A DNA stretch of 64,000 nucleotides from assembly GCA_028283765.1 (NCBI GenBank), contig JAPWJY010000008.1, forward strand, positions 434,001 through 498,000. The letters run 5' to 3'. This document shows positions 31,014 to 54,988 of the stretch, piece after piece (the first letter of the stretch is position 1; every line of letters starts with the position of its first letter). A program made the position numbers and the translations under genes. This DNA comes from Parvibaculaceae bacterium (GTDB taxonomy: Bacteria; Pseudomonadota; Alphaproteobacteria; Parvibaculales; Parvibaculaceae). The notes under the pieces are model-generated. The model had not been told where the DNA came from and ran no database searches. It saw only the letters and a program-made list of their open reading frames with translations.

Positions 31014-32300
31014 CTAGTCCATGCATCCCTTGTAGGGTGCGCTATCCTTGCCGGTGCGAATGCCTTTGCAGGTAACGATGTTGACCGAACATCCTGAGCC
31101 TGAAACGGTGATTTTCTTTGAGCCGCCATCGATTTCAAGCCCGTCCACCGCGATGTGGCAGGCAGCGCCCCTGATCGAGAAGGCGCCATATCTGGCATTG
31201 ATAACGCGGTTATTGATGAATCTGACATCTGAGACGGTCAGATTTTCTTCCCGGTCGGCGGCTATCTGCAATGCGGAATGCCCCGCCTGACTCTTTCCGG
31301 GAGGCGCATCGAATTGCTGATTATTAACGACCGTGTTCCCGGTGACCGTGATGTCAGAAGCGCCATAGGTATGATAGGCCCTTTCCTGGGCGATCAATAT
31401 CCCCGCAGCCGTTGCATTATCCTTGATGAGGTTGTTCTCGATCGTGATGCGCTCGCCTCCGGCGACGCTTATGCCTCTGCCCCAGCTGTTGGGACCGACA
31501 ACGTTGTTGGCGATAAGAATGTCGGATGAAATCGGGAGCGGCTTTGCGTCATTATCGGATCGATAGCTGACAACCGCGATGAGATCATCTCCCGTATTGG
31601 AAACGATATTCCGGCTGACAAGCCCATATCGGGAGCCATGAGTCATATGAATCCCGTCAGCGGAGGTGCCTGACACGATATTGCCGGATATGGTGAAATG
31701 CTGTGCGCCAGCCGATGCGATGCCGGCGCTCCGGGAGCCATCAATTTTGTTGTTGAGGACATAATTGCCGGTGCCGCCTATGAGGATGCGCACCGTGGAA
31801 TATTTTGAGCTTCGGCCGGCATAGGGAGGCATGGTCAGGCGAAAGCCGATCATCATGTCATTGTCTCCATCCAGCCGGATCGAGGAGTCCTCCGGGTTGA
31901 ATGGCTGAAGGACGGCCTTTTCTGAAAACAGGATGATATTCGGGGCCGCTATGCGCAGCATCCTGCCATGCCGGTATGTGCCCGGTGGAAAATAGATGAT
32001 GGCGCCTTCAGGCCCGGTCCCGGCCGCCCTGGTGATGGCGTTGCCGTCATCATGCTTGCCGGTGCCGCACGCACCGTAGGAGGCAATGTTCACAACTGCT
32101 GAGGGAACAGGGATTCCCGGGGGCAAAAGGCGAATGACCTGATTACGGATTTCAACCGGGTCGTAGCGAGAAACCCTGGCATCCGCGGGACAGGTCCCCG
32201 GGATTGCAAAAGGCGCTACTTCAACGGCGATGGATGTCGAGAAGCTGAAACATACCAGAAAAAAGCTTACAAAAACGAAGGAGGCAGGTTTCCATGACAT
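31014..32300 (-). CDS. Secreted right-handed parallel beta-helix protein
   Basis: The 428-residue protein has a signal peptide (residues 1-25, FVFVSFFLVCFSF core) and then a pectate-lyase-3-like start (INIASYGACGTGKHDD-type, GAIIYFPPGTY). Repeated turns follow with N-x-I/V-x-x-N/G patterns (NYVLNNKIDG, FTISGNIVSG, GLVSRNIVSN, ITVTGNTVVNN), the signature of beta-helix lyases, epimerases and glycosidases. The C-terminus has Cys pairs (GSGCSVNIVTCKG). It lies directly downstream of the priming transferase gene, so a role in processing the exopolysaccharide in the periplasm is likely. Catalytic residues cannot be assigned. Confidence 0.8.
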   Translation of the reverse strand: MSWKPASFVFVSFFLVCFSFSTSIAVEVAPFAIPGTCPADARVSRYDPVEIRNQVIRLLPPGIPVPSAVVNIASYGACGTGKHDDGNAITRAAGTGPEGAIIYFPPGTYRHGRMLRIAAPNIILFSEKAVLQPFNPEDSSIRLDGDNDMMIGFRLTMPPYAGRSSKYSTVRILIGGTGNYVLNNKIDGSRSAGIASAGAQHFTISGNIVSGTSADGIHMTHGSRYGLVSRNIVSNTGDDLIAVVSYRSDNDAKPLPISSDILIANNVVGPNSWGRGISVAGGERITIENNLIKDNATAAGILIAQERAYHTYGASDITVTGNTVVNNQQFDAPPGKSQAGHSALQIAADREENLTVSDVRFINNRVINARYGAFSIRGAACHIAVDGLEIDGGSKKITVSGSGCSVNIVTCKGIRTGKDSAPYKGCMD

Positions 32301-32341: not shown

Positions 32342-33934
32342 CTAGTAAGCACCAGACTTCATCAGAACCGCCGGGATGGTTTTGAAGATGATAGCAATAT
32401 CCTGCCAGAGTGACCAGTTGCGGACATACCAGCAGTCGAGCTGCACACGTCTTTCATATCCCGTGTCGTTACGGCCGCTGACTTGCCACAGTCCTGTGAT
32501 GCCAGGGCGGGTCAACAGATAATAACTTGCATCTTCTCCATATTTGAGAAGTTCGGTGGGGGTTACGGGGCGAGGGCCGACAAGGCTCATGTCGCCACGA
32601 AGAACGTTGATGAGCTGGGGCAGTTCATCAAGGCTTGTTGCCCGCAGAAAGCGACCGACACGGGTCACACGCGGATCGTCCCGCAATTTCTGATCACGTT
32701 GCCATTCCGCGGCTTTTACCGGATCGCTCTTGAGTACGGCCTCAAGTCTGGCGTCGGCGTCGATCACCATGGTGCGGAATTTCAGGCATCCGAAGAGGCG
32801 ATTCTTGATGCCGACGCGACGATGCCCGTAAAAGGAAGAGCCGCCATCAAGCCGGATAACCAGGGCAACCACGGCAAAGAAGGGCAGAAGAAGGAGAAGG
32901 GCGGTTCCCGAAACCACAATATCGAAGGCGCGCTTGATGAAACGGCTTTGGAGATTCGCCAGATTGTTGCTGGCGCTCAGCATCATGACATCGTGGCTGA
33001 AGAAGTATCCGGCTTTCATGTTCAGCACGGAAAGCCCTCGAAGCGGCGGGATGATGCCATAAGGCGCATGGGTAGTGTTCAGGTCGCGGAGCAGAGGCTG
33101 CATCCGTTCAAGAGAACTGGCTGAAGGCGCCAGCAATGCAAATTTGACCTTGTAGTGTGCATACATTTCGATAAGCGCCCTGCGCCGGCGGACACTCTCG
33201 CTGGTGTTGTCGCCTGCTGAAGGCGCAGGGCTGTCAACGAAACTCGAGATGGGAAGGACACCCACGACGCGATAGCCCAGATAGGTCTCCGAATGGAGTG
33301 CATCGACGGCGTCACGGCTGTTTTCCTCGTCTCCGACAACGATGACGGGAACGACCCAGCGGCCGAAGGTGGTCAGGAGCCGTCTGATCCAGATGCGTGC
33401 AAAAGGCAAGGTGATCGCAGACCATAGCCAGGTCTGGATAAACCATAGTCTTGAGAACTGAATCTGGAGGAGAAACAGGATTGTGGCATCCAGCAGGGCG
33501 GCGACAAAGAGCCCCTGACAAATATCCTTCATCTCTGCCCAGAATGGCGTGCGCCGGGAATAATGCCCCCGGATCGATAACCAGAACAGCAGACCTGCGG
33601 TGATCATGCTGGTTTCGACCGAACGGCTCCAGACAGTTTCGGGCTGAAGAGATAGATAAAGTCGGCCAAGGAGCGTTTCATTGATAAAGGCGGCTAATCT
33701 TCCGCCTACGGCAAACGCGACCAGAATAGCCAGTACGTCCGCCATCACTAAAAGAAATCGCTGTGGGTAAGGCGTAAGCCGGCGAACACTCGATGAGTGA
33801 AAAAAAGTGGAATCCGCTTCCTCACGAGGCGCCTGATGGCGTGATTTTTTTTCCTCGGCTGGCGGCACCTCACACTCCCCGGGGGTAAGACGAACAGGAG
33901 TGTCGCTATCACGCCTCAGTAAATTGTACTTCAT
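32342..33934 (-). CDS. GumD-like undecaprenyl-phosphate sugar-1-phosphate transferase
   Basis: Starts the repeat unit by moving hexose-1-phosphate (probably glucose, from UDP-Glc) to undecaprenyl phosphate in the inner membrane. The 530-residue protein has an N-terminal basic region, four hydrophobic helices (~65-190), a CoA-binding-like cytosolic domain and the C-terminal catalytic domain: KRAFDIVVS plus one helix, [36 protein letters not shown] and [14 protein letters not shown]. The ATG at 33934 has AAGGGG six bases upstream; the longer frame is not needed. It is the first gene of a minus-strand pair with the beta-helix gene, facing a 640-bp spacer. Confidence 0.93.
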
Positions 33935-34236
33935 ACCGGCCCCTTGCCCGTCCCCAGGTGAGCCATGTCCATCTGCGGACTTGTGTCTCACGCCAATTGG
34001 CCGGCCTGTCTCCAAACGCTACTCATTCATCCGGTACCGCTGGCCATTGCTCGCGTGAGCAAGCAGATCGACACAGCCCGTTATCCGGGATGCCCACGTC
34101 ATTCCCGCCTGATATTTGCCGCAGACACTTTCTCATACTAAAGCACGAATTTGTGACGAATGCGAGTAGATTGCCGAAATTCAGAGAGACTCTATTGTGA
34201 AAGGAAAGTAGAGGATGGATTGCTTACTTTGTCAGG

Positions 34237-36795: not shown

Positions 36796-36884
36796 GTCTG
36801 GTTACCGGCCGCCCGGGCTCGTTCTTCTGGACTGTGTGGGAGTTTCCCGGTGCAGGAATCTGGGAGGACGTCATGGAAATGAAA

Positions 36885-36911
36885 AAAACGCCGGACTTGT
36901 TCCGGCGTTTT
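36885..36911. terminator. Strong bidirectional intrinsic terminator
   Basis: AAAACGCCGGA and TCCGGCGTTTT form 11-bp arms around a 5-base loop, with an A run on the left extending the T tail on the minus strand. It sits between the convergent GT4 gene and OPX lipoprotein gene and serves both. Confidence 0.85.
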
Positions 36912-36944
36912 CATGAGCAGGCCGATGTCTTCGGCGCCTTGCCA

Positions 36945-37604
36945 TCAGAAGTAACGTTCTGGCACCCGTACAATGTCACCGGGAAGAATGCGGATCTTTT
37001 CTTTCGTGATGGAGAATTCCTGTTCAGGTCCACCACCCCGCGAGATGTAGACGCTGTCCGTCGTAGCCCGGTAGGTGTACCCACCGGCAACCGCTACGGC
37101 ATTGAGGACAGTCATGCCATTCGTATAGGGGTATTCACCGGGCTTCTGGACTTCGCCGATGATGTAGAAGGGGCGGTAATTCAAAACCTCGACGCTGACC
37201 CGCGGATCATTGATGTACCCTTTGGAAAGGGCGGTTGAAATCGTCTTGGAGAATTCATCAACAGTGAGGTTTGCGGCCTTCAATTGCCCGATCAGCGGGA
37301 ATGAGACAAAACCATTGCCGGCAACCTGAAACTCGCCCGTCAGATCCGGTTCGCCATAGACGATGATCCGAAGATTGTCTCCGGAACCGAGGCGGTACTC
37401 ATCGCCCACCACAGGGGCATCGGGTGCCGTATCGGGCAGGATAACGTCAGTAGAGGTAGAGGATGTCGGCGTGGCTGCATCGCTCTCGGCTGGGGGGCCG
37501 AAACTTCCACCTGCGGGTGCGCAGGCTGCGATGCTGCCCCCGATAACAAGTGCTGCTGCCAGCACTCTTAGCCGAAGCAAATTACTGGAAACCCAATTCT
37601 TCAT
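36945..37604 (-). CDS. Short polysaccharide export (OPX, Wza/GumB-like) lipoprotein
   Basis: Export-channel lipoprotein in the periplasm and outer membrane. The 219-residue protein has a signal peptide with lipobox IAAC (Cys28), a Pro/Ser/Thr-rich linker (~35-62), the polysaccharide export domain (YRLGSGDNLRIIVYGEPDLTG, SFPLIGQLKAANLT) and one SLBB-type domain (FYIIGEVQKPGEYPY, AVAVAGGYTYRA). It then stops at ILPGDIVRVPERYF. Wza-type proteins continue with an amphipathic outer-membrane helix, which is absent here. GAGGG precedes the ATG. See the finding on the beta-barrel partner. Confidence 0.92.
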   Translation of the reverse strand: MKNWVSSNLLRLRVLAAALVIGGSIAACAPAGGSFGPPAESDAATPTSSTSTDVILPDTAPDAPVVGDEYRLGSGDNLRIIVYGEPDLTGEFQVAGNGFVSFPLIGQLKAANLTVDEFSKTISTALSKGYINDPRVSVEVLNYRPFYIIGEVQKPGEYPYTNGMTVLNAVAVAGGYTYRATTDSVYISRGGGPEQEFSITKEKIRILPGDIVRVPERYF

Positions 37605-37742
37605 ATCACCCTCTACTGCCCGCTGGGTTTTTACCGATCTGACGGGATCGATGTCTTACCGTATTTCCAGGTAAGGTTATCAGTGTCTTGCTGTACTTGA
37701 GTAGGTCAAGAATCCTGCCTGAAATAAAATGGCAAGTCTCCC

Positions 37743-38534
37743 TTAGCCTCTGGTTTGAAGTATTCTGATCCCGTCATGGTGGATGACGAGTGCCGTCAGT
37801 ACATTTGTCATGTAGGCGCCTGTATCGATGCCAATCCGGTTGTTCCGTAATACAGGGGCTGCCCCCGGGGTATGACCATGGACAATCAACTTACCAAACG
37901 AGCCCTCAAAATCCAGAAATTCCCCTCGAATCCAGAGAAGATCATGGGTTTCCTGCTGATCGAGCGGAATACCGGGCCGCACCCCGGCATGTGCAAAGAA
38001 GCATTCGCCAAGAGTATAGGAAGCCGGCAGCTGACGAAGAAATTCCCGATGTGTTTGCGGAACGGCATTTTCAAAAGCGACCCGGGCCCCCTCAAATTCT
38101 GAACGGCTGGTCGCGGTTGCCAGATTGTTTATTCCATAGGAATGGAGCGTTTCCGCGCCACCATAATATTTCCATGTCTGTCCAAAACCGGAATCATCAA
38201 GAAACTGAAGCATGGCCTCTTCATGATTCCCTTTGAGGAAAACTTTATGGAATGTGCTCAGAAAAGGACTTGTCAATCTTTCAAGCACCTGACGCGACTG
38301 AAGACCGCGATCTACATAATCACCGAGAAAAACGACAATTTTATTTTGATCGTCATATCCGGCTGCATCTTGTTCGATTCTCAGGAGAAGCCTGGACAAA
38401 AGGTCGTCCCGTCCATGGATGTCGCCAATTGCATAAACCAGGCTTCCCTCCGGTATCAGTTCACGAGAGCTTGCTCTGTTCGCAGGTGAAAAATTGCTTC
38501 TGCCGCCTTTGATCAGCCTGGCCGCCAGTTTCAT
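37743..38534 (-). CDS. PPP-family metallophosphoesterase (protein phosphatase-like)
   Basis: The 263-residue cytosolic phosphatase has all signature blocks of the Ser/Thr phosphoprotein phosphatase family: GDIHG at 37-41, GDYVDRG at 71-77, GNHE at 102-105, then HAGVRPG and HGHTPG. Two metal ions should be bound by these Asp, His and Asn residues. Bacterial members act on Ser/Thr, sometimes Tyr, phosphoproteins or on bis-nucleoside polyphosphates. The ATG at 38534 is my choice; an in-frame GTG at 38555 is equally possible. It lies upstream of the OPX gene on the same strand, inside the EPS locus. Confidence 0.85.
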   Translation of the reverse strand: MKLAARLIKGGRSNFSPANRASSRELIPEGSLVYAIGDIHGRDDLLSRLLLRIEQDAAGYDDQNKIVVFLGDYVDRGLQSRQVLERLTSPFLSTFHKVFLKGNHEEAMLQFLDDSGFGQTWKYYGGAETLHSYGINNLATATSRSEFEGARVAFENAVPQTHREFLRQLPASYTLGECFFAHAGVRPGIPLDQQETHDLLWIRGEFLDFEGSFGKLIVHGHTPGAAPVLRNNRIGIDTGAYMTNVLTALVIHHDGIRILQTRG

Positions 38535-38555
38535 TAAGTTGGCAGAAGTTGACAC

Positions 38556-39147
38556 GTCAATATTACCACTATTCTTTCATGGTCATTCTGCCTGCAGTAT
38601 GACCTCTTCGATTGCCGCCAGCCTGTATCGATGAGTGGCCATATTTGAAACGAGATTCATTATACATGGAAAATTAGTGGGGGCGAAGAGACTCTAAAAT
38701 TTTATGGGGCTTGCCACAGCTTTTCTCAAGACCATGCAGCGCTTTCCCGTCTGGCGTGTATGTGAAAATCTATTCACAAGAAAATAAGAAAAAATGTAAT
38801 TCTATGCAAAATATCAAAGATATAATTTAGAACGGAAATTTTACTGACCCGGATCACGATGATGTTTCGCATAAGTCATTTGGAATGGCGAGTGTGCATG
38901 CACAAAGGCAGTAACTGCAAAGATTACTGTCAAAAAAGTAAGCAATTTATGTGTTTGCAGAGCTTCGCGAGGCGAATTTGTTGCGCACACGACACAGAAT
39001 TTCTCTCTTCAAGAGGAAATAATGAAGACTTTGCTGCATAAGCTAAGAAACGATTGTGTCCTCGCGAGAATTTAAGGTAACTTCAACAAAGAGTTTCAGG
39101 GGTATGGCATTGAATATCAGGTGCCTGAAAATATGGAGAGGCAGACC
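38556..39147. other. 592-bp AT-rich divergent intergenic region
   Basis: No gene supported. It is much more AT-rich than the window average and separates the phosphatase/OPX genes from the plus-strand export operon. It includes GTGAA-AATCTA-TTCAC (38762-38777), ATATC-AAA-GATAT (38811-38823) and a TATAAT at 38821-38826 without a good -35 box. Promoters for both directions are expected here. Confidence 0.55.
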
Positions 39148-40017
39148 ATGAAGAAGGGGCTGATTGCTTTCACGCTGGTGTCCGCCATCAGCAGTGGTTC
39201 AGTGGTTTTGCCGTCGACGGCAGCATTCGCGGATGCTGCGGCTGATGTGACCACCGCTTTACAGACGTTGACGGGTTCTGCGTTGGCGAGCGCAATCGAA
39301 GCGGCGCTGAAATCGGCGACGTCGCCCGAAGAAGTAAAGGCGGCGATCGAGGCTATCGCATCCGTCGCGACGCCGGCGCAACAGGAATCCTTGGGGGCGG
39401 CGGTCGGTGCCGCCGTGGCCGCACTTCCTGATGCGCAAAAGTCGGCCGCAATTGAGGCGGTAGGCTCTTCCCAGCTTGATGGCTTCAAGTCCTCCTTTGT
39501 CGTGTCGTTTGTAAGCGCATCGCCTGACGCGACAGTTGCCATTACAACCATTATAAGCTCGGTTTCGTCTCTGTCGGATGGGCAGCAAAAGGCGATGGGC
39601 GTCGCTATCGGTGTAGCCTCCACGCAGTTGCCGCCGTCGGTTTCCCAGGCTGTGACGCGCGCTGTTGTTTCCAGTCCTGATGCTGGATCGACGATAAAGG
39701 CCTCTTATGTAGCCGGTTTTATTAATGCATCGCCGGACAAGACGGTTGCTGTCAGCTCGCTCAATGCGGCGGTGGCGGCAAGCACAGAAGCCTCGGCTGC
39801 TCTGGGAGCGGCGATTGCCGGAGCTATCAGCCTGGCGTTGGTGCCCCCGGCGACGGCGCAGACTGTGACGGCTGCGGTTCAGGCTTCTGGTAATCAGAGC
39901 CTTGCAAGCGGTTATTCGGCAAATGCGACAAATCCGGTAGCCAATAGTTCGCCTGGGGATGCGTCGAGTGCTATTCCCGAGCAGAAAACAGACACCAATG
40001 CGGGTAGCCCGAGCTGA
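39148..40017 (+). CDS. Secreted Ala/Ser-rich repeat protein of the EPS operon
   Basis: I do not recognise the family. The 289-residue protein has a clear signal peptide (MKKGLIAFTLVSAIS, cleavage after AFADA) and then a low-complexity, mostly Ala/Ser/Val sequence containing repeats of about 68 residues at 82-149, 150-218 and 219-~262 (each beginning L/M-G-A/V-A). A partial copy precedes them and a polar, disordered-looking tail follows (residues ~263-289). It has no Cys and few charges, which suits a periplasmic or extracellular structural protein. The ATG at 39148 has GGAGAGG six bases upstream. It precedes the barrel and wzc genes in the same direction. Confidence 0.75.
   Translation: MKKGLIAFTLVSAISSGSVVLPSTAAFADAAADVTTALQTLTGSALASAIEAALKSATSPEEVKAAIEAIASVATPAQQESLGAAVGAAVAALPDAQKSAAIEAVGSSQLDGFKSSFVVSFVSASPDATVAITTIISSVSSLSDGQQKAMGVAIGVASTQLPPSVSQAVTRAVVSSPDAGSTIKASYVAGFINASPDKTVAVSSLNAAVAASTEASAALGAAIAGAISLALVPPATAQTVTAAVQASGNQSLASGYSANATNPVANSSPGDASSAIPEQKTDTNAGSPS
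39391..39933 (+). repeat. Three tandem ~68-codon repeats inside the secreted protein gene
   Basis: Units at 39391-39594, 39595-39801 and 39802-39933 (the last truncated) encode aligned segments: each opens with LGAAVGAAV, MGVAIGVAS or LGAAIAGAI. The first two share FVVSFVSASPD / YVAGFINASPD and end with a Gln/Ser/Ala-rich linker. Similarity is at protein level; the DNA copies have diverged, so the duplication is old. Confidence 0.65.
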
Positions 40018-40131
40018 TTTGCCGCATTTTTTGGCTGGTTTCGTTGGCTGGATTTTCTACTGAGCTTTGATCGGGCCCAGGTGGGGTGCCTCGCCTGATG
40101 TCTCTGGCGCGGGTTGTAGTTGTAGGCTTAA

Positions 40132-40148
40132 CCGCACGGATTGTGCGG
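40132..40148 (+). promoter_or_regulatory. Small hairpin upstream of the barrel gene
   Basis: CCGCAC and GTGCGG form 6-bp arms with a 5-base loop, 27 bases before the ATG at 40176. It may influence translation or mRNA processing between the two operon genes. Confidence 0.25.
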
Positions 40149-40175
40149 GGCATTGATGATTGATGGGGGTGCGTT

Positions 40176-41507
40176 ATGTCGAAGTTCCGTAGAGTTGGGT
40201 TTGCAGCTGTGGCGTCCTTGGCTGTTGCGCCTGTTGCCGCCTACGCTGACATGCCTCAGGTAACATTGGTTGGCCCGCAAGTCATCCGCGTCAATCTGCC
40301 TGTGGCCTCTCCCGCTGCCAATACGCAGACACAGGATATTCAGGATGTACGTAATCAGGGCGTGGCTGAGCGTGCGCGCCCTGGATATGATCCCGAAGGC
40401 GTGCGGCTGGGTTCCTTCATTCTGTACCCTACATTGCAGGAGTCGATGAAGTATAGCGACAACGTTTACGCTACCAAGGATGACAAGAAAGGCGACTTTT
40501 CTGTTGTCAGCAATCCGCAGGTGGCGTTGTTGTCCAACTGGTCTCGTCACTCGCTAAAGATTCAGGGGGGGTGGACGAACTATACCTACTTCAAGGAAAC
40601 AGCGCTTAACCGCAACGACTTCAGTCTGAATGCGGCTGGCCAGCTTGACATCACCCGGGATGCCAATTTGACGCTAAGGGGTGGCGTTGCTCAATTGCAT
40701 GAAGAGCCGGGTGCGTCTGGTGCGCCGACCGATGCATCTGAGGCTAACAAGTATACATTGGTTACAGCAGGGGCGGGTTACAATCAGCGCTTCAATCGCG
40801 TGACGAGTGCACTCACAGGCGATTTTCAGAGCTATACATACGATAATGTCTCGAGCTTCAGCGGAGACAAGATTCTCGAGTCTGATCGTAACTATGATCA
40901 GTACAATGTAGACTGGCGTGTCGGCTATGATGTCTCGCCGAACGTCAACGTCTATCTGAAGCCTGGTTATAACTGGGTTAATTATACGAATCAGCCTGGC
41001 TCTGAGGCGTCGCGTTCGAGTGATGGTTATACGATTGCCGCCGGTGTCCAGTTCGCAGTCAGCCAATTGATTATTGGTGACGTCTATGGCGGCTATCAGC
41101 GGCAGTCGTATGATGCTTACAAAAACCTTTCTCTCCCTTATTACGGAGCAAATGTCACCTGGTACGCAACATCTCTTACCACTGTTCGTTTTGGGGCGGG
41201 CTCCGCGATCAACCAGACAAATGTCGCCGACGCGCAAGGGTATCTGGCCCAGACTGTGGGCTTGGGAATCGATCATGAACTTCTGCGCAACGTGATTTTG
41301 TCCGCAGATGGCGCCTACGAAAGCGATGACTACAAGAGTTCTCCGCGTACAGACGATTACTGGCGGGGAGGACTTCAGGTGAACTATCTGATCGACCGGA
41401 ATTTCGCGGTAGGCATCGGCTATACAATTATTGATCGTAATTCGACGATTAATAATCTTGATTATACTTCCAATAAAATCGGTTTGCTTCTTCGCGCCCA
41501 GCTGTAA
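40176..41507 (+). CDS. Outer-membrane beta-barrel protein (BBP2-like) of the EPS locus
   Basis: The 443-residue protein has a signal peptide (residues 1-24, AAYA/D), a ~50-residue N-terminal stretch and then a long series of amphipathic strands with alternating aromatic residues (SLKIQGGWTNYTYF, YNVDWRVGYD, NVNVYLKPGYNWVNY, FAVGIGYTIIDR). It ends in LLRAQL, consistent with an integral barrel of about 16-18 strands. Proteins of this kind recur in EPS loci. I infer that it forms the outer-membrane pore for the polysaccharide together with the short OPX lipoprotein. GGGGG precedes the ATG. Confidence 0.8.
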   Translation: MSKFRRVGFAAVASLAVAPVAAYADMPQVTLVGPQVIRVNLPVASPAANTQTQDIQDVRNQGVAERARPGYDPEGVRLGSFILYPTLQESMKYSDNVYATKDDKKGDFSVVSNPQVALLSNWSRHSLKIQGGWTNYTYFKETALNRNDFSLNAAGQLDITRDANLTLRGGVAQLHEEPGASGAPTDASEANKYTLVTAGAGYNQRFNRVTSALTGDFQSYTYDNVSSFSGDKILESDRNYDQYNVDWRVGYDVSPNVNVYLKPGYNWVNYTNQPGSEASRSSDGYTIAAGVQFAVSQLIIGDVYGGYQRQSYDAYKNLSLPYYGANVTWYATSLTTVRFGAGSAINQTNVADAQGYLAQTVGLGIDHELLRNVILSADGAYESDDYKSSPRTDDYWRGGLQVNYLIDRNFAVGIGYTIIDRNSTINNLDYTSNKIGLLLRAQL

Positions 41508-41664: not shown

Positions 41665-42477
41665 ATGCCATACGGATCGGACTTGCAGCCCTACCCGCGT
41701 GTAGACCCTGCTATTGAGGGCGCGAGTGGTGGATTGGACGGAGTCTTCTCGCCTGGTGGTCTCGTTGATTTTTTCAGGATTCTTCGCCGTCGGCGGGCGA
41801 TCATCTTCTCTGTCATTATTTTGATAACTCTCGGTGCGCTGGCCGCAACCTTTGGGGTTACCCGGCAATATACGGCGTCGGCTTCGCTGCTTATGTCGCC
41901 GCAGAAATTGCAGGTTGTGGATGTTCAGTCGGTTCTTTCGGATCTGACGACGGACAGTTCGACAACGGAAAGCCAGTTGCAGGTTCTGCAGTCCCGTACG
42001 CTGCTCGAAGGTGTGGTTACACAGCTTAACCTTACCCAGGATCCCGAGTTCAACACGACCCTGGTTCCGGCGAGTCCCTACCGCTGGCTTAACCCGCTAA
42101 CCTGGTTGGCTAAGATTCTTCCAGCACCTGCGCCCCGTTCTGAAGAAGACCAGAAGGCGCATGAACTCAACGTTGTTATCAATAATCTTCAAGGGGGTCT
42201 CAGCATCAGCCGGGTTGGTGTGTCTTACGTGATGAATGTGTCGTTCACATCGCAAGATGCCAAGAAGGCGGCGGTTATCGCGAATACGATCTGCGATCGC
42301 TACCTGACGGATCAGCTCGAAGCAAAGTTCGATGCAACACAAAAGGCGAACGACTGGCTTTCCCAGCGACTGGATTCGCTTCGGCAGCAGGTTGAGGCTT
42401 CAGACCGCGCTGTGGAAATTTATCGGTCGTCGAATGATCTTTCGGCCACGGGGCCGGATGGCCAGTACGATAAATGA
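41665..42477 (+). CDS. wzc: Wzc-type polysaccharide copolymerase, N-terminal part (frameshifted)
   Basis: The first 265 or so residues of a Wzc/GumC-like chain-length protein: polar N-terminus, LVDFFRILRRRRAIIFSVIILI (transmembrane helix 1) and the periplasmic Wzz domain (YTASASLLMSPQ, ESQLQVLQSRTLLEGVV, ATQKANDWLSQRLDSLRQQVEASD). The frame ends at TGA 42475-42477 within the coiled-coil part. Removing one C at 42462 or 42463 joins it in frame (TGPDG-STINDQQLSELN) to the next ORF and gives a 755-residue protein of normal Wzc layout. As read, this half alone would be a membrane fragment without kinase. Confidence 0.88.
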   Translation: MPYGSDLQPYPRVDPAIEGASGGLDGVFSPGGLVDFFRILRRRRAIIFSVIILITLGALAATFGVTRQYTASASLLMSPQKLQVVDVQSVLSDLTTDSSTTESQLQVLQSRTLLEGVVTQLNLTQDPEFNTTLVPASPYRWLNPLTWLAKILPAPAPRSEEDQKAHELNVVINNLQGGLSISRVGVSYVMNVSFTSQDAKKAAVIANTICDRYLTDQLEAKFDATQKANDWLSQRLDSLRQQVEASDRAVEIYRSSNDLSATGPDGQYDK

Positions 42478-43933
42478 TCAGCAACTTTCCGAGTTGAACG
42501 CGCAGCTCATTCTGGCCAGAACCGATCTTGCAGAAAAAGAGTCCCGGCTTGGCGGTGCCCAGCAGGTGGCGCGGTCTGGCGGCAATACCGACTCGATCAC
42601 TGAAGTGTTGCAGTCTTCGGTCATTGGCGATCTGCGCAGCCAGGAAGCTGCATTGACAGCCAAGCAGGCTGACCTGTCCGCCAAATATGGCCCACGCCAT
42701 CCGGCAATCATCAATATCGAGGCGCAGCGCAGGGATATTGAGGTTCAGATCAGCTCGGAAGTCCGCCGGATTATCGCAGGGCTCTCCAATGATGTTTCAG
42801 CCTCCAGGTCGCGAGTGCTGTCGCTTTCCAACAGCCTGAATGAACTGCAGCAACGCAATGCGAAGAATAACTCTGCGACCGTCAAGCTCAATGAGCTTCA
42901 GCGTCAGGCGAGCGCCAACCAGGCGCTGTATGAGTCCTTCCTTGGGCGTTTCAAGCAGACGTCACAGGATCAGGGCATTGAATCCGCAGATGCCCGGATC
43001 ATTTCCGAGGCTGTGCCTCCCAACTCGGCCAGCTATCCCAAGACGGGTCTCGTTCTCTTTGTGGCGTTCGGCTTTTCCGTCATCGCAGGCATAGCGCTTG
43101 CCCTTGTTGTCGAGCGGCTCGACAACAGTTTCAAGACGGTTGGAGAGCTTGAAAGCAGCCTGCAAATTCCCAACATGGCGACGATCCCACTCTTTCGGGC
43201 CGTCAAGGATGAGGGCGGCAACCGGGTCAGCATTGACCGCTATGTTCTCCTGAAACCGATGTCCGCATTCGCGGAGGCCTTCCGGGGATTGCGTTCGTCG
43301 CTACAGTTGAGCAACGTCGATAATCCGCCCAAGGTTGTTTTGTTCACGTCTGCTATTCCTTCGGAAGGAAAATCCACCTGCTCGATCAGCTTTGCCCGCT
43401 CTGCGGCAATGGCTGGCCATAGTGTGGTGATTATCGATTGCGACTGGCGGCATCCGACCATTGCCAAATTCACCCATACCGAAAAGCCGACTGTCGGCGT
43501 GATCGATTTGCTCGTCGGCAGGGCGACATTCGAAGAGGCGATGCAACAGGATGCCTATAGCTCCGTCATTTGTATTCCGGCTATCTCCGGCACGATGAAT
43601 CCGCCTGACGTGCTGGGGTCCGAGCAGATGAAGCACCTCATTCAGGAGTTGCGCAGCAAGTTTGATTTTGTGGTTCTGGATACGCCCCCGGTATTGCCTG
43701 TCATCGATGCCTGCGTTCTTTCGCATCTTGCTGACAAGTCTGTGCTGGTCGTGCGCTGGAACAACACCGAGCGCAGTGCAACGCTCAGCGCCTATCGTAA
43801 GCTCCTGGAGTTTGGGAGCGATGTGGCCGGGACAGTTTTCACTCAGGTGGATCCTGCGCGTCAGGCACAATATGGCTATGGCGACACCCATTACTATTAT
43901 AGTGGACGTTACGGGAAATATTATCAGAACTGA
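42458..43933 (+). CDS. wzc: Wzc-type tyrosine kinase, C-terminal part (frameshifted)
   Basis: The continuation of the Wzc-like gene in the +1 frame. From the joint it has the rest of the periplasmic coiled coil (QLSELNAQLILARTDLAEKE), a GNVR-type segment, transmembrane helix 2 (FVAFGFSVIAGIALALVV), and the BY-kinase: Walker A SAIPSEGKST, Walker A' VVIIDCDWRHPT, Walker B FVVLDTPPV. The last 20 residues hold a tyrosine cluster (eight Tyr), the autophosphorylation tail. An in-frame ATG at 42458 could restart translation, but the product would lack helix 1. The stop overlaps the next ATG by one base. Confidence 0.88.
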   Translation: MASTINDQQLSELNAQLILARTDLAEKESRLGGAQQVARSGGNTDSITEVLQSSVIGDLRSQEAALTAKQADLSAKYGPRHPAIINIEAQRRDIEVQISSEVRRIIAGLSNDVSASRSRVLSLSNSLNELQQRNAKNNSATVKLNELQRQASANQALYESFLGRFKQTSQDQGIESADARIISEAVPPNSASYPKTGLVLFVAFGFSVIAGIALALVVERLDNSFKTVGELESSLQIPNMATIPLFRAVKDEGGNRVSIDRYVLLKPMSAFAEAFRGLRSSLQLSNVDNPPKVVLFTSAIPSEGKSTCSISFARSAAMAGHSVVIIDCDWRHPTIAKFTHTEKPTVGVIDLLVGRATFEEAMQQDAYSSVICIPAISGTMNPPDVLGSEQMKHLIQELRSKFDFVVLDTPPVLPVIDACVLSHLADKSVLVVRWNNTERSATLSAYRKLLEFGSDVAGTVFTQVDPARQAQYGYGDTHYYYSGRYGKYYQN

Positions 43934-44667
43934 TGCCCCACTCTTCAAACAGAGGTCTGGAGAGGCGCACGGACAGCACCACCCGTGTGACGGGGGCTCT
44001 GTTTGTGCTGGCCGCCCTGGTGGTGATGGCGCTCAGCTTGCGCCCGATGATGGCATGGGGCGTGATCGCTCCGGTAAATGACGGCCTTGATGAGGCGAGG
44101 CTGGCACAGGCGGATTCTGATGAAAATCTGCCGGATATTGTCGCAAGGCTTAATCAGGCAACGGACATATCATCTCGCTCATGGATGCTTCAACGCTACT
44201 ACTCGCTGGCGCTTGTTGCCCAATTTCGCAAAACGGGTGAAACGCGTGACATCGTCCAGGCGATGGATGTTGTCAAGAAAGCCCTTGCCGCCGCTCCGGC
44301 GCGATCTCAGCTATGGATTCTTTTGGCCATGGAACAATCCATGGCGGGGCGGCCGATCGATGACGTCATCACCTCGGTGAGGCAATCATATCTGACTGGC
44401 CCGCATGAATCTTATCTCTCGCGGCAGAGGGCAGGTCTCATATTTTCGAACTGGCACCGGATGCCGGCGGATCTGAGGGCACAGGCTGTGAGTGATGCTG
44501 TAGAGCTTTCGAGCATAGCCCAGATCGAAGCTGTATATGATTTTGCGTTTCTGTTTGAGTCTCTGGCTCCTGAACCCAGAAAACTGGTAGCCGATCAGGC
44601 GTTGCCCACACCGGCACGGCTGCAATGGTATTCCACTCTTCTGAAGAGAATGCGTGATACGAGATAA
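43933..44667 (+). CDS. Membrane-anchored helical hypothetical protein of the EPS operon
   Basis: Not recognised. The 244-residue protein has one transmembrane helix at about 20-42 (VTGALFVLAALVVMALSL), and the rest is predicted to be alpha-helical with a TPR-like feel (YYSLALVAQFRKTGETRDIVQAM, LWILLAMEQS, SYLSRQRAGLIFSNWH). It is translationally coupled to wzc (TGATG) and precedes the ligase-like gene by 45 bases. That suggests a periplasmic partner of the copolymerase or polymerase; this is inference from position. Confidence 0.65.
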   Translation: MPHSSNRGLERRTDSTTRVTGALFVLAALVVMALSLRPMMAWGVIAPVNDGLDEARLAQADSDENLPDIVARLNQATDISSRSWMLQRYYSLALVAQFRKTGETRDIVQAMDVVKKALAAAPARSQLWILLAMEQSMAGRPIDDVITSVRQSYLTGPHESYLSRQRAGLIFSNWHRMPADLRAQAVSDAVELSSIAQIEAVYDFAFLFESLAPEPRKLVADQALPTPARLQWYSTLLKRMRDTR

Positions 44668-46219: not shown

Positions 46220-47341
46220 TCAGGCCGATGGGCTGGATTCTGCAGACAGCCGGGAAAACATGACGCCGGCTACTTCCGTCCACGACAGGGCAGGAGAGGG
46301 GGTGAAGTTACCCTTGGCCAGCAGCGCTTTATCGATGGCCGATGTAATGGAAACACTATCCCCCGGCGTATAGCCAAAACGTCCGGGATAATCGCCCGCA
46401 GCGAAATAAGGGCAAATGGCGGGTAGTCCAAGATAGCCATATTGCACAAGCTTGAGGCTCGAGTCGGAAAGATAGTCCGCGTCGGGATGCGCCTTGTAGG
46501 GCGCGACACCGGCATCGGCGAATTTTATGTATGGCAAAGTCTTTTCAAACGGCATTTCAGGATATTGCGAAACATTCGCCGGCAGCTTGTAGGGACCCTT
46601 GGCTCCTATCAGATGAAAACTGATGTCGGGAAAGGCTTTGGCGGCTATCTCGAAGAAAGTTGGATCAAAGAGCATCGAACCGACAGAGACGATATGACGG
46701 CCGGGCCCATAGGGATTGCTCATGGGTTTTGCCGCGATGCTTTTGTCGATGCCTTGGGGGATGTAGACAGCCTTCTCACCGGCCGCGGAAAAAGCGGGCA
46801 GCATGGCTCTTGCGGGCACACGGATCACCCCGAATTCATGCAGCCCTGCCGTCAGCGCCTTGCTCACGACGGGATGAACCCCGATGGTAGAAAGCAGATC
46901 CGAGGCGATGTAGGCAAATTTCGCTGAAGGGGCGAGCCGCCGGAGCCGCGGGATGAAGATCGGTGCGAGGCCGGATTCCAGCACGATGACATCTGCATCG
47001 GCACAGCGCTCATCAAGCTCGGCGCAGGGCAGCGCGGCATAGGCGCGATACAACAGGCCTACGGGTCCAGACAGCCGGCGTCCACCCAGATTGAAAGGAT
47101 GCACGGGGGTCTTCCAGAGATAGCAGTCAACTCCGCCGACATTTTCCCAGCGATTGGCTTTCCCGGCGAGGGAAATGCGCGGATCGCCCTTGTATCTGGA
47201 GAGAGAACTGAAGCCGATGGAGAAAAATGAAACGCGTTTGAACTGCTCCGTTGCGGCCTGGGCGATGAAGTGAACGTTCGCCTTGCGGGGGGAACGAAAG
47301 TCATGACCGGAGATGAACAATATATTCTGATTTTTACTCAT
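46220..47341 (-). CDS. gumK: GumK-like glucuronosyltransferase (GT70)
   Basis: Adds glucuronic acid from UDP-GlcA to the lipid-linked oligosaccharide at the cytosolic face of the inner membrane. The 373-residue protein matches what I know of Xanthomonas GumK in several blocks: SGHDFRSPRKANVHFI, GVDCYLWKTPVHPFN, VIVLESGLA, ASDLLSTI, VGSMLFDPTFFEIA, KAFPDISFHLIG, DSSLKLVQYGYLGLPAICP and RFGYTPG. UDP-GlcA is supplied by ugd at 55039. Its start overlaps the SGNH gene's end by 8 bases, so the two form one minus-strand operon. Confidence 0.93.
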   Translation of the reverse strand: MSKNQNILFISGHDFRSPRKANVHFIAQAATEQFKRVSFFSIGFSSLSRYKGDPRISLAGKANRWENVGGVDCYLWKTPVHPFNLGGRRLSGPVGLLYRAYAALPCAELDERCADADVIVLESGLAPIFIPRLRRLAPSAKFAYIASDLLSTIGVHPVVSKALTAGLHEFGVIRVPARAMLPAFSAAGEKAVYIPQGIDKSIAAKPMSNPYGPGRHIVSVGSMLFDPTFFEIAAKAFPDISFHLIGAKGPYKLPANVSQYPEMPFEKTLPYIKFADAGVAPYKAHPDADYLSDSSLKLVQYGYLGLPAICPYFAAGDYPGRFGYTPGDSVSITSAIDKALLAKGNFTPSPALSWTEVAGVMFSRLSAESSPSA

Positions 47342-51106: not shown

Positions 51107-52582
51107 TTATATGCCCGGATTGCTGGAAATTTTTGGCGTGCTTTTGAACTGGACCATATCGCGAATGATCTTGGTCATCAGATTCAAATGATGGCGACCA
51201 AAAAGCGCAATGAGCAGAAGATATGTCGCGCTGCCGCAAAGCATAAGAATTAGGAGCCGTGGCAAGGCGCCCACATCGGCGGGAATGACAAACCGTTCCA
51301 TGCCCAGGATGAGCAGTTCCATGGCGGCGGCGCAAATCACCGGCCGGTATATGGCCTTCAGAATGACCATCGGGGCTACGCCGCCGAATTTATCGACCTG
51401 GCGTAACGCCATCGGCGTTAACACATATGCTCTTAAGACGTATCCGGCAGCTGTTGCTATGGGTCCAAAGGGGCTGGTGAGTATCGCCGTTAAAACGCCG
51501 AGCACGGCCAGGGATGATGAGTATTTAAGGACTTCCTTGCTTTTGTTCTGGACGAGCAACAACTGGCTCGACGCCATCGAGATGGTCAGGGGAACGAAGT
51601 GAAGGGCGAGAACCATAAAAATCGGCGCAGCAATCTTGCCATTTTCCCCGAGGGCAAGCGTCAACAGCACCGGGCTTACAGCAGCCAGACCGAGACAAAT
51701 GGGAGAAATGATCGTGGCGCAAAGGGAAAGCACTTCAATCAAGGCGGACCTTCTGCCTGCATCGCCTTTGACTTTTGAAAGGACGGGCAAGGCCGCCACG
51801 CGCACAGGATCGACAAGGACGGAATTGATGAGACTGAGAATGCGTTGGGCAATTGCATAAGCGCCAAGGGCTGCCGGGCCGGCAAAGGCACCAAGTGCGA
51901 TCTGTGATGCCGGAACGACGATCCCGCTTGCAAAGGTGGACAGCGAGACATGGAAGGATGGACCAATAATCGACTTCACGTCGGGCCAGTGCACCGATGT
52001 GAAGGAAATATTGCGGCGCACAATGAACATTGCGATCAGGGTCGAGATCAGGGACGTGGCGATGTTGAAGGCGACAAGAGCGCTGGCCCGCCAGCCCAGA
52101 TAGCCAAGCAACAGGCAAATGGCCGCTGCCACCGTAAGTCCGGCTGTTGTGCGGAGCGTTATACTCGAAAATTCCAGATTCTTCCGCAGGATGGCTTCTG
52201 GAACAATGCCTAATGAGTCAATTAAGGGAACAGTCGCCAGGAACAGGAATATCCATGGTGAAGATCCGTTGAATACTTGCGTAACGATCCCTACTGTCGC
52301 GATGAAGACTGCCGACAGTACCCCGATTATAATCGACGACATGTTTGCCGCCGCGATGAATGCCCGGTCTGTCCGGGGGGCGGCGACAAAAACCTCCATC
52401 ACCCCTGTTCTGACAAATGCCTGGATCACCTGGACAAATGCGTATGCGAAGCTGTATGCGCCGACTTCCTTTAGTGTAAGGTATCGGGCGAACAAAAGAA
52501 AAACTCCGGCCTGTATACCCAGACGGACGACCTGAAGCGCGACCGACCATGCGCCGGCGCGTATTGCACGCGTTCGTGACAT
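51107..52582 (-). CDS. Wzx/GumJ-like lipid-linked oligosaccharide flippase
   Basis: The 491-residue MOP-superfamily membrane protein has about 12-14 helices. It begins with a positively charged N-terminus and GAWSVALQVVRLGIQAGVFLLFARYLTLKEVGAYSFA-type flippase sequence, and has further family segments (VALGAFAGPAALGAYAIAQRI, VAALPVLSKVKGD). It moves the completed lipid-linked repeat across the inner membrane. The ATG at 52582 has AAGG seven bases upstream. It is divergent from the nitroreductase-like gene; the length matches GumJ. Confidence 0.88.
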   Translation of the reverse strand: MSRTRAIRAGAWSVALQVVRLGIQAGVFLLFARYLTLKEVGAYSFAYAFVQVIQAFVRTGVMEVFVAAPRTDRAFIAAANMSSIIIGVLSAVFIATVGIVTQVFNGSSPWIFLFLATVPLIDSLGIVPEAILRKNLEFSSITLRTTAGLTVAAAICLLLGYLGWRASALVAFNIATSLISTLIAMFIVRRNISFTSVHWPDVKSIIGPSFHVSLSTFASGIVVPASQIALGAFAGPAALGAYAIAQRILSLINSVLVDPVRVAALPVLSKVKGDAGRRSALIEVLSLCATIISPICLGLAAVSPVLLTLALGENGKIAAPIFMVLALHFVPLTISMASSQLLLVQNKSKEVLKYSSSLAVLGVLTAILTSPFGPIATAAGYVLRAYVLTPMALRQVDKFGGVAPMVILKAIYRPVICAAAMELLILGMERFVIPADVGALPRLLILMLCGSATYLLLIALFGRHHLNLMTKIIRDMVQFKSTPKISSNPGI

Positions 52583-52698
52583 TCTTGACCTTTTCTGCGG
52601 CACTGCAACATGGTAGCAGGCTTCACTCAAGCCTAGCAAGCAAGCGATAGAGACAGCTCGGTATCGAAACTTCAGTATGAATTTCTCGGGGGGTAATT

Positions 52699-53853
52699 AT
52701 GTCTAGCTCAGGTGCTCGGGATGCTGTCGGCGCACTCAGCTCCAGGTTGCGTCAAAGTCCGTGGTTTCTGAAATATCATGCAGTCAGGCGTTTCATCCGC
52801 CGAACCAGACGCCGGCTTGCGATAAGCATGGCGAGGTTATTCAGCTTCAGTGGCTTTACATCATCTTTATATTATTTTTTGTGCTCAAGGGACTTTGATC
52901 GCGAACATAGATCCGTTCTGCTTGGGAAAATCAAGTTTGAGAAGCGTCTCAAGTCATATGGCGCATCCAACGGCCTGCTCAGGCGGAACATTCATCGGCT
53001 TGAAAAAGGCCTGATAATGAAGCAGCGGCGGCCTGTTTTCGCGTTGGATTACATCGAGGAAACGATAGACCTGTATTCTCTTGCTGTGTCATCCCTGAAG
53101 CATGCGGGAACATCAAATAATGAAGTTTCATGGGCTCATGATGTTCTTGTGCAGTATTTTGACGCCTGTTCCAGATCGGTCCTGAGTGCGCCGGCGCGGA
53201 AGCGGTTTGAAGAATTGCCCAGGCCTCTCGCGTCCAGGGAGATCGAAGCTCTTTCCAAAACGGCAAGGGTGCCCTATGTGGCCGCAGAGCGTGAAACGGC
53301 CTCCGTTTCATTCGATGCGTTTTTCGATCTGGCAAAGCGGCGCCGGTCGGTCCGCTGGTTTCAAGACAAGCCGGTTGAGCCTGAGAAGCTGGACAAAATC
53401 ATCGATGCCGCCCGTCTGTCGCCGAGCGCGTGCAACAGGCTTCCCTATCATTTTCTTGCGATCACCGATGGGCCCCGGGCACAGGCGTGCGCTCGTCTCG
53501 CCGGAGGCACGGGGGAGTTCGCGTCGCAAATTCCCGCGCTTGTCGTGGTGCTGGGTGACCTTAGTTGCTACTCCGAAGAGCGGGACCGCCACCTGATCTA
53601 TATCGATGCGTCGCTGGCGTCGATGTCGTTGATGCTTGCGGCGGAGACGGTCGGTTTGAGTACTTGTCCGATCAACTGGAGTGACGTTCCTTTTCGTGAA
53701 AAAGCGATGTACAAATTCCTTCAGGATGTTCCTGAATATTGGCGGCCGATCATGCTTATTGCGGTCGGCTATGCGGATGATTCCGGCGCAATTCCTTTTT
53801 CATCGAAAAAGGACATGAGTATTATTCGGAGTCATGGCAATGCAAGTCTTTGA
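52699..53853 (+). CDS. Nitroreductase-family protein with long N-terminal extension
   Basis: The 384-residue protein has its C-terminal half (from ~205) as an FMN-binding nitroreductase-like domain: KRRRSVRWFQDKPVEPEKLDKIIDAARLSPSACNRLPYHFLAI, SLMLAAETVGLSTCPINW, IMLIAVGYAD. The first ~200 residues are Arg-rich with one hydrophobic stretch and do not match a known domain. It overlaps the next gene, a pyruvyl transferase, by 14 bases, so the two are very likely translated together. It may act on a sugar or lipid intermediate; the reaction is unknown. Confidence 0.82.
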   Translation: MSSSGARDAVGALSSRLRQSPWFLKYHAVRRFIRRTRRRLAISMARLFSFSGFTSSLYYFLCSRDFDREHRSVLLGKIKFEKRLKSYGASNGLLRRNIHRLEKGLIMKQRRPVFALDYIEETIDLYSLAVSSLKHAGTSNNEVSWAHDVLVQYFDACSRSVLSAPARKRFEELPRPLASREIEALSKTARVPYVAAERETASVSFDAFFDLAKRRRSVRWFQDKPVEPEKLDKIIDAARLSPSACNRLPYHFLAITDGPRAQACARLAGGTGEFASQIPALVVVLGDLSCYSEERDRHLIYIDASLASMSLMLAAETVGLSTCPINWSDVPFREKAMYKFLQDVPEYWRPIMLIAVGYADDSGAIPFSSKKDMSIIRSHGNASL

Positions 53854-54988
53854 GCTGCAGGGCGTAAATTTTGAGAACAAGGGAGCGGAGTTAATGCTTC
53901 GCGCCACTCAAGAGCATTTTGCTTCCGTACCGAACCTCAAACTGGCTCTTCCGTTCAGAATTGGATCTCCCGCGCAGCGCAATTCGGCCGGGCTGCTCCA
54001 CTTGCTCGCGCTTCACCGCGAACCCCCGCTCCTGAATACGGTGATCGATACCGCCTCATGGTTCGTTCCGGGGGCCATCAGGCGGCGGCTCGGCGTTTGC
54101 AGGCCCGCAGAGATGTCCGGTCTCATCGATGCTTCGGGCTTTCTTTATTCCGATCAGTGGCCGATCGGGAATCTGGAATTGCAGGCGCGGAAGGCTGCCC
54201 GTTTCAAGGCGGGTGGAAAGCCGGTCATTTATCTGCCTCAGGCTTTTGGCCCTTTCAAATCGGAAAGGGCCAGGGATTTGGTGGCTACGATCGTGCAGCA
54301 CTCGGATCTTGTTTTTGCCAGAGACAAAATTTCGTATGAGCATCTTGTGGGGGCCGCTGGCCAGCAGCCCCAAATCCGGATTGCCCCGGATTTTACGAAT
54401 CTGGTGGAAGCGCGAATCACGAAGACGATCCCGGACAATGTCGTCTTTATCGTTCCGAACGCTCGAATGATCGACAAGTCGCCTCCCGCTGTCGCGGAGC
54501 GTTACGTGTCGTGCCTGGCTCAGGTGGCTTCGTCCGCGCGAGATGCCGGCCTGGACCCGGTAATCATGATTCATGATGCCATCGGCGACAGGGCTGTCGG
54601 TGAAAGTGTTCAGAAGCTCCTGGGGCAGCCCCTTGCCGAGATGACGCATCCTGACCCTCAGGTGCTTAAGGGCTGGCTGGCTCAGGCCCGGGGGGTGGTT
54701 GGTTCACGCTTCCACGCCATTGTCAGCGCCTTGTCGAGCGGAACGCCGGCCATCGCGTTGGGATGGAGTCACAAGTACGGCGAGCTTATGGCTGACTATG
54801 GCCTCGCTCATTTGAACCTGGGTGTTCAGGATGAAGAAAAACTTCAGGCTGCCATCGCTGCCTGGGCCGATCGAGACCAGTACGAGAAGCAAAAGCAGGA
54901 TCTCAAGCTTGCGTCAAACAAGCTGAAGGCAATGACGAAAGATATGTGGAAAGCGGTGGATGATATGTTGTTCGCAACCCGGCGCTAG
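53840..54988 (+). CDS. Polysaccharide pyruvyl transferase
   Basis: Predicted to add a pyruvate ketal from phosphoenolpyruvate to a sugar of the repeat unit, which gives the polymer negative charge. The 382-residue protein has the family blocks ENKGAELMLRAT near the N-terminus (G-D/A-E substrate loop), YLPQAFGPFKSE, SDLVFARDKISYEHL, and the C-terminal GSRFHAIVSALSSGTPAIALGWSHKY. The ATG at 53840 has GGAG eight bases upstream; ATG 53834 is too close to it. It is the last gene of a two-gene operon, before a strong hairpin. Confidence 0.9.
   Translation: MQVFELQGVNFENKGAELMLRATQEHFASVPNLKLALPFRIGSPAQRNSAGLLHLLALHREPPLLNTVIDTASWFVPGAIRRRLGVCRPAEMSGLIDASGFLYSDQWPIGNLELQARKAARFKAGGKPVIYLPQAFGPFKSERARDLVATIVQHSDLVFARDKISYEHLVGAAGQQPQIRIAPDFTNLVEARITKTIPDNVVFIVPNARMIDKSPPAVAERYVSCLAQVASSARDAGLDPVIMIHDAIGDRAVGESVQKLLGQPLAEMTHPDPQVLKGWLAQARGVVGSRFHAIVSALSSGTPAIALGWSHKYGELMADYGLAHLNLGVQDEEKLQAAIAAWADRDQYEKQKQDLKLASNKLKAMTKDMWKAVDDMLFATRR

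Follow-up and report, generated by a model that had tools for sequence, protein, structure and literature searches.

The locus described here raises the question of how a polysaccharide can cross the outer membrane when the outer-membrane polysaccharide export (OPX) protein encoded with it, a putative lipoprotein, has no membrane-spanning helix. The locus lies in a 64,000-nucleotide stretch of DNA, hereafter the window, from a Parvibaculaceae bacterium (assembly GCA_028283765.1, contig JAPWJY010000008.1, positions 434,001 to 498,000), whose genome is a 3.24 Mb, nine-contig draft. Domain content, a structural model and analogy with characterised systems make it very probable (roughly 0.85) that a surface polysaccharide is exported here through a composite outer-membrane translocon belonging to a Wzx/Wzy locus, the two parts being the short OPX protein (36945–37604, minus strand) and a separate beta-barrel (40176–41507, plus strand). 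A two-part channel had been put forward in an earlier note on this DNA, and the predicted architecture, the synteny and the co-occurrence described below support it well.

Domain scanning of the 219 amino acid (aa) OPX protein revealed a Poly_export domain (PF02563) at residues 67–140 and one SLBB domain (SLBB_2) at residues 146–213, followed by the C-terminus at residue 219. An alignment of an OPX profile (A2, eight orthologues) with solved Wza (359 aa) covered Wza residues 57–230, so that D1 and D2 are present whereas D3 and the D4 membrane helix are absent. The chain stops after D2 and does not carry the C-terminal amphipathic membrane helix of class 1 Wza; the domain limits and the Wza alignment both bear out the earlier statement that the protein ends right after its SLBB-like domain. 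With no more than 280 aa, Poly_export and SLBB domains and neither D3 nor D4, it is a class 3, D1D2-type OPX protein. The last PGD motif started 12 residues before the C-terminus, PERYF (36948–36962, minus strand), an ER-aromatic-F-like ending which was common to relatives when their ends were read. The best solved match of the profile was 9n9a, a 186 aa export protein whose chain likewise terminates after D2, with PESFF as its end. A lipobox-like IAAC was recognised by eye at residues 25–28, its cysteine being absent in one relative (L046). Alignment with seven relatives showed that the window OPX retained 53/53 invariant residues, the C-terminal end included.

The product of the barrel gene, 443 aa in length, matched PF10082 (E 7e-96, residues 68–442). 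Its AlphaFold2 model, made from a 50-sequence alignment, contained 18 long strands (mean predicted local distance difference test score (pLDDT) 85.7, predicted template modelling score (pTM) 0.81) and lacked any helix ≥4 residues long, so that the predicted barrel has no plug. Modelling of the barrel alone was a check suggested in the earlier note, whose description of a 443-residue barrel near wzc fits the PF10082 match, the 18-strand model and the start of wzc at 41665. When the model was compared with solved structures using VIA-align, Occ porins scored best (Z 19.1), in a tie with the alginate exporter AlgE (5iyu, Z 18.7; root-mean-square deviation (rmsd) 4.5, 313 residues aligned, 7% identity); Foldseek alone ranked TonB-dependent receptors at the top. 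The barrel is referred to here as Wzp/EpsX-like. Class 3 OPX genes have an 18-stranded barrel gene and polysaccharide biosynthesis genes no more than five genes away, and both were found in the window: two genes separate the OPX gene from the barrel gene, whose strand count is taken from the model.

These two intervening genes encode a calcineurin-like metallophosphatase (37743–38555, minus strand) and what the earlier note called a repeat protein (39121–40017, plus strand), and the OPX gene lies on the strand opposite to the barrel gene, as that note had reported. Gene order was compared with nine of the relatives G001–G012 (G007, G008 and G010 were left out). A window-type OPX gene with a PF10082 barrel gene downstream on the same strand was present in 7/9, and 6/7 of those shared the order phosphatase, OPX, small protein, barrel, wzc, the places of the phosphatase being confirmed by tblastn. 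The exception was G002, in which the phosphatase gene was inverted and behind the barrel gene, with no wzc following. As the phosphatase–OPX pair of the window is inverted relative to the relatives, and so diverges from the small protein, barrel and wzc genes, the position of the OPX gene on the opposite strand represents a local rearrangement.

Co-occurrence of short OPX and barrel genes, the survey proposed in the earlier note, was followed in the best 80 of 456 OPX relatives from named genomes. A PF10082 barrel was encoded <10 kb from the OPX gene in 65 of the 80, with OPX then barrel on one strand in 44, divergent genes in 18 and barrel then OPX in three. The ending ER[FYLI][FW] was found in 78/80; the remaining two were a broken hit and a YWLF end. 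Fifteen of the 80 had no barrel nearby, seven of them with nearly 10 kb of flank on both sides, and for six of the 15 (L077, L082, L100, L104, L126 and L127) PF10082 was located elsewhere in the genome (6/6). A family sample of 40 genomes encoded OPX in 40/40 and above-cut-off PF10082 in 38/40.

The pairing extended to a class-wide sample of 142 Alphaproteobacteria genomes, for which counts are not corrected for phylogeny. OPX was present in 65 genomes, PF10082 in 45 and both in 44, meaning that PF10082 occurred in 44/65 OPX-bearing genomes compared to 1/77 without OPX (a weak hit). Sorted by open-frame length, OPX genes with a barrel gene ≤10 kb away made up 30/50 (≤240 aa), 8/20 (241–280 aa), 5/24 (281–420 aa) and 0/32 (>420 aa). 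Of the 70 OPX with frames ≤280 aa, 68 were then classed by reading their C-terminal ends, the two of the window genome included: 37/56 D2-ending OPX were barrel-linked compared to 0/10 with a C-terminal extension (Fisher p 9e-5, likewise uncorrected). The two G002 proteins were handled apart from the 68; both end in ERYF and one is barrel-linked. Before the ends were read, a script tally had given 53 D2-ending (36 linked) and 15 others (one linked). On reading, G127 (PED for PGD, linked) and L163 and L187 (D2 without PGD, unlinked) were moved to the D2 group, and L181 and L197 (both unlinked) were left out of the table as odd; moving G127 alone gives 37/54 and 0/14. The set supplies many natural OPX–barrel pairs, which are relevant to the docking of ring and barrel, together with a within-genome contrast with an extended OPX and a sequence signature for short OPX (a last PGD placed 12 residues before an aromatic terminus).

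In the mechanism favoured here, the polymer would be made by Wzy, handled by Wzc and passed into a ring that the short OPX lipoprotein, with D1 and D2 only, would form in the periplasm, where its lipid would hold it to the outer membrane. The ring would dock beneath the 18-stranded PF10082 barrel, which would form the membrane pore. Going one step further, the conserved aromatic C-terminus of D2 may contribute to the docking face, and the barrel may have the small secreted helical protein as its accessory. Direct support comes from the domain content, the predicted barrel fold, the gene neighbourhood, the conserved pairing and the lack of a C-terminal membrane helix; we infer ring formation, docking and polymer passage from EpsY/EpsX (WzaX/WzpX) of Myxococcus and from the knock-out of a Sphingomonas barrel.

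Several observations weigh against a composite translocon in the window, or against its generality. The coupling is not absolute, as an OPX gene lay ≤10 kb away in 43/58 PF10082 barrel rows of the class sample (58 of 63 rows were used, five falling below the cut-off; two of these five, G104 and G068, sit 3–5 kb from OPX that end at D2 and were tallied as unlinked). A search covering PF10082 only found no such barrel in five genomes of the class sample whose OPX ends at D2, and a sixth (G048) was added after the ends were re-read. Two genomes of the family sample, G170 (83% complete) and G176 (93%), encoded OPX but no above-cut-off PF10082. Parvibaculaceae also possess a second short-OPX type, ending in ERYF or ERFF (L036, L039, L041, L043, L045, L047, L049 and L051), and searching 20 kb at each of these eight loci with the barrel profile found no PF10082 barrel ≤10 kb from it. 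PF10082 barrels without OPX or companion alongside occur near a KdsD-like gene (L037, L038, L044 and L052). According to PMC9603273, evolutionary coupling does not strengthen the case for a WzpB–WzaB contact, perhaps through too few sequences. Finally, the wzc-type polysaccharide co-polymerase/tyrosine kinase gene of the window (41665–43933, plus strand), assigned by domain scans and homology to relatives, is frameshifted in this assembly. The wzc of five relatives, one of them cut by a contig end, aligned in one window frame up to 42441–42453 and in the next frame from 42437–42467; both halves keep similarity, and the relatives read through the break. The frameshift, which the earlier note did not mention, may be either a mutation or a sequencing error, and if it is real this isolate may not have a working pathway.

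Twenty selected neighbours of the second short-OPX type were scanned for a barrel in L036, L039, L041 and L049. None was a barrel; they matched Wzy, Wzx, GNAT-type, deacetylase or TolC-type outer-membrane efflux protein (OEP) families or had no match, the OEP being present in L036, L041 and L049 and not in L039. The OEP was set aside as a candidate exit pore and taken as a mere neighbour, since its gene adjoins an apparent valS (by inspection). G003 and G006 encoded only the second OPX type plus one lone barrel beside the KdsD-like gene, and G007, counted without comparison of the locus itself, had the same numbers of OPX and barrels. Lone barrels together with barrel-less OPX fit the use of a barrel in trans, and OPX–barrel coupling in Parvibaculaceae is thus not absolute.

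Among other explanations, the barrel could be a surface accessory, such as a Wzi-like lectin or attachment protein, with the OPX ring exporting alone or with another pore. Wzi is likewise an 18-stranded barrel encoded in a capsule locus (PMC3791409), and some short OPX genes have no PF10082 barrel in their vicinity; however, the barrel model is plug-free with the exporter AlgE among its best structural matches, a D2 end and barrel linkage coincide while no extended short OPX was linked (0/10), and deletion of the barrel gene in Sphingomonas abolished exopolysaccharide (EPS) (PMC11340318). We therefore hold an accessory role to be very improbable. Little credence is also given to an exit through the second OPX of this genome, with the window OPX and barrel being auxiliary or degenerate. 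The genome has one PF10082 gene and two OPX (PF02563) genes. A full-length Wza elsewhere in the genome, which the earlier note had named as evidence that would count against its proposal, did not turn up; the one other PF02563 gene (C3:1295115) encodes a 280 aa protein that runs past D2 into IADANLFIEQYVTNMLPF, a Wza-like C-terminal extension of a kind able to form a helix. This extension and the broken wzc of the window would suit such an exit, but the gene lies ~0.82 Mb from the window OPX gene in a cluster (L033:8132–19909) that has a Wzz protein, a Wzy and a sugar transferase of its own (Pfam), and the window OPX has kept all 53 invariant residues, the end included. No barrel was found among ten proteins scanned around the second OPX, which looks dedicated to another polymer. 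By inspection, its cluster also encodes a flippase-like protein and contains sugar-phosphate genes similar to the ones for activated heptose.

It is somewhat easier to imagine a locus in decay, in which the composite channel is present by descent and this isolate has stopped exporting because its wzc is broken. The frame change at ~42437–42467 and the inversion of the OPX and phosphatase genes would be in keeping with decay. On the other side, the OPX, barrel and companion genes are open and conserved, both halves of wzc retain similarity, and a single frameshift in a nine-contig draft may be a sequencing error; decay is accordingly considered unlikely.

The protein encoded immediately upstream of the barrel (39121–40017, plus strand; likely start at MKK, 39148, by inspection) is an Ala-rich, apparently secreted helical protein, here called the companion. 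It had no Pfam or NCBIfam match, and a scan of 26 relatives gave weak, scattered matches only. A profile built on 16 proteins of the OPX–barrel gap in Parvibaculaceae was searched against the 7433 open reading frames (ORFs) of the loci, and at E <1 it matched solely ORFs immediately upstream of the barrel on the same strand (the called starts overlap in L066). The iterated profile gave 52 matches at E ≤0.01 (51 with an earlier version), 46 of which ended ≤200 bases from the called start of the barrel gene (in three cases with an overlap). The other six were a match at 343 bases, three extra copies at 839–941, a match at 2154 (L109) and a match on a barrel-less contig (L084). Some loci are duplicated, so that distinct companion genes number ~46, and as the loci were selected for OPX the result speaks for a place in the locus and not for specificity across the genome. 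The window companion is a family member (E 4.2e-31, three matched stretches). The profile had no match at four stand-alone barrels of relatives. Several Caulobacterales proteins in the companion position gave weak scores or none and count as members by their position alone. A signal-peptide-like start was seen in nearly all members (crude score and by eye). AlphaFold2 modelling of companion L057 with 25 relatives predicted seven helices (pLDDT ~98, residues 41–150) and then a disordered tail.

A named fold for the companion was sought and rejected, the best Foldseek match having E 0.21 and the best VIA-align match (Z 8.4, rmsd 4.3, 115 residues) falling within the noise for helical repeats. 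The sequence match to PDB entry 2qgu (E 2e-4) was also discarded, as it covered profile positions 1–54 only, largely signal peptide. Class-wide, the companion profile matched 3/142 genomes, one strongly (G002, same family), at a threshold that missed the window member itself; these few matches imply a family that is fast-evolving or lineage-bound. A C-terminal tail motif, S[PAGDS][NSTDG], derived from Parvibaculaceae proteins, ended 6/28 ORFs upstream of OPX-linked barrels and 1/9 upstream of unlinked barrels (39 of 40 upstream stretches were counted; L220, 310 bases, was left out), against a background of 44/1332 genes in which the companion family was still included (binomial p 3e-4), and is no more than suggestive of the tail beyond Parvibaculaceae. 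Other proteins that look secreted are encoded upstream of many class-wide barrels, and larger ones among them, L236:1–1833 (with a FecR domain), L226, L228 and L237, had the Ser-Pro-Ser/Asn-like tail of the companion family.

On sequence evidence, then, the companions are a predicted secreted, alpha-helical family recurrently encoded just upstream of PF10082 barrels in relatives. A more tentative idea, which we regard as possible rather than probable, is that Parvibaculaceae, Caulobacterales and their neighbours use a three-part export unit of OPX ring, barrel and companion. In such a unit the compact helical repeat of the companion would dock on, or insert into, the barrel or ring by its conserved Ser-Pro-Asn-like tail and act as a plug, scaffold or assembly factor, the aromatic D2 end being the OPX side of the docking. 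Tetratricopeptide repeat parts serve synthase-dependent exporters, and the role of the companion is likened to theirs. If a companion is indeed part of the channel, the two-part model is incomplete for a group of Alphaproteobacteria. No report of the companion or of the ER-aromatic-F ending was found in the open-licence literature, including term searches of PMC9601211 and PMC9603273.

The intergenic region at 38556–39120, delimited from the ORF list, separates the divergent phosphatase–OPX and small protein–barrel–wzc sets and may hold regulation shared by both; promoter-like sites showed no excess (four found, 4.2 expected). A terminator-like hairpin of 12 pairs follows the OPX gene (36884–36912, minus strand) as a consensus match alone, the region having six such matches compared to 5.1 expected in shuffles. 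The metallophosphatase, assigned by domain scan and found as a neighbour of OPX in relatives, is a possible Wzc phosphatase replacing Wzb. Beyond wzc are p244 (43933–44667, plus strand), a protein with a similar counterpart after wzc in three relatives (L042, L046 and L048), and a Wzy-type polymerase/ligase (PF04932; 44683–46191, plus strand). A Wzx-type flippase was identified by domain scan at 51107–52639 (minus strand).

The earlier note had also predicted a xanthan-like repeat unit, and this holds only in part. The locus encodes a GumK-type glucuronosyltransferase (46220–47341, minus strand; PF22059, E 4e-53, N-terminal domain match), a polysaccharide pyruvyl transferase (53834–54988, plus strand; domain scan) and two acyltransferases, which suggest acidic, decorated side chains. 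Xanthan-type synthesis is initiated by a glucose-1-phosphate transferase of the GumD/WcaJ type. The initiating sugar-phosphate transferase of the window (32342–34015, minus strand) scored 475.7 bits as WbaP (cut-off 403) and 296.1 bits as WcaJ (cut-off 410.75); as the initiator is WbaP-type, the backbone need not be xanthan-like. Adjoining wbaP, at 31014–32300, is a gene for a right-handed beta-helix protein, which possibly acts on the polymer. A search of the literature on Parvibaculum exopolysaccharide found nothing on this locus among the papers listed.

Comparison with known systems shows several partial likenesses. AlgE has a barrel fold like that modelled here, but its pathway is synthase-dependent, whereas the window locus has genes for Wzx, Wzy, WbaP and Wzc. 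The XrtA/PEP-CTERM pair TIGR03027/TIGR03016 was matched by the OPX protein (94.3 bits, aligned to the last position of the profile; curated cut-off 180) and by the barrel (55.2 bits; curated cut-off 90.85) below the cut-offs, which places the window outside that pair. Caulobacter CCNA_00162–00168 includes Wzc (00163), a metallophosphatase (00167) and a Wza-like OPX (00168), all essential for the capsule (PMC4241560); PMC5749776 states likewise, and a fragment of CCNA_00168 (41–198) served for antibodies (PMC4241560). CCNA_00162 is called a lipoprotein in PMC4241560, and its equation with the PF10082 barrel is a guess. In Sphingomonas, the promonan genes for the OPX PrmD and the barrel PrmC are adjacent, and in-frame deletion of either prmC or prmD gave an EPS-negative strain, both thus being required; deletion of prmB, a 64 aa ORF upstream of the barrel gene, left the strain mucoid (PMC11340318). 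VpsN/VpsM of Vibrio cholerae, a short OPX/barrel couple according to PMC9601211, is likened to the window pair by description only.

The closest likeness is to Myxococcus, in which the composite translocon was defined (PMC9601211, PMC9603273) and for which the earlier note had cited the short OPX/Wzp precedent correctly. The name Wzp comes from PMC9603273, and PMC9601211 reports that EpsX and EpsY of Myxococcus xanthus interact and stabilise each other and, from a survey of 6,607 genomes, 453 short OPX that have a coupled barrel and lack a C-terminal helix. The Myxococcus OPX and barrel genes are 3–65 bp apart (PMC9603273), whereas in the window the phosphatase and helical protein genes lie between them and the OPX pair is inverted. 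EpsY/EpsX (WzaX/WzpX) resemble the window pair in combining a D1D2 OPX of ~217 aa with an 18-stranded, AlgE-like barrel in a Wzx/Wzy pathway, and the window channel belongs to these D1D2-OPX/beta-barrel (class 3 OPX/Wzp) translocons, a kind already known since its publication in 2022.

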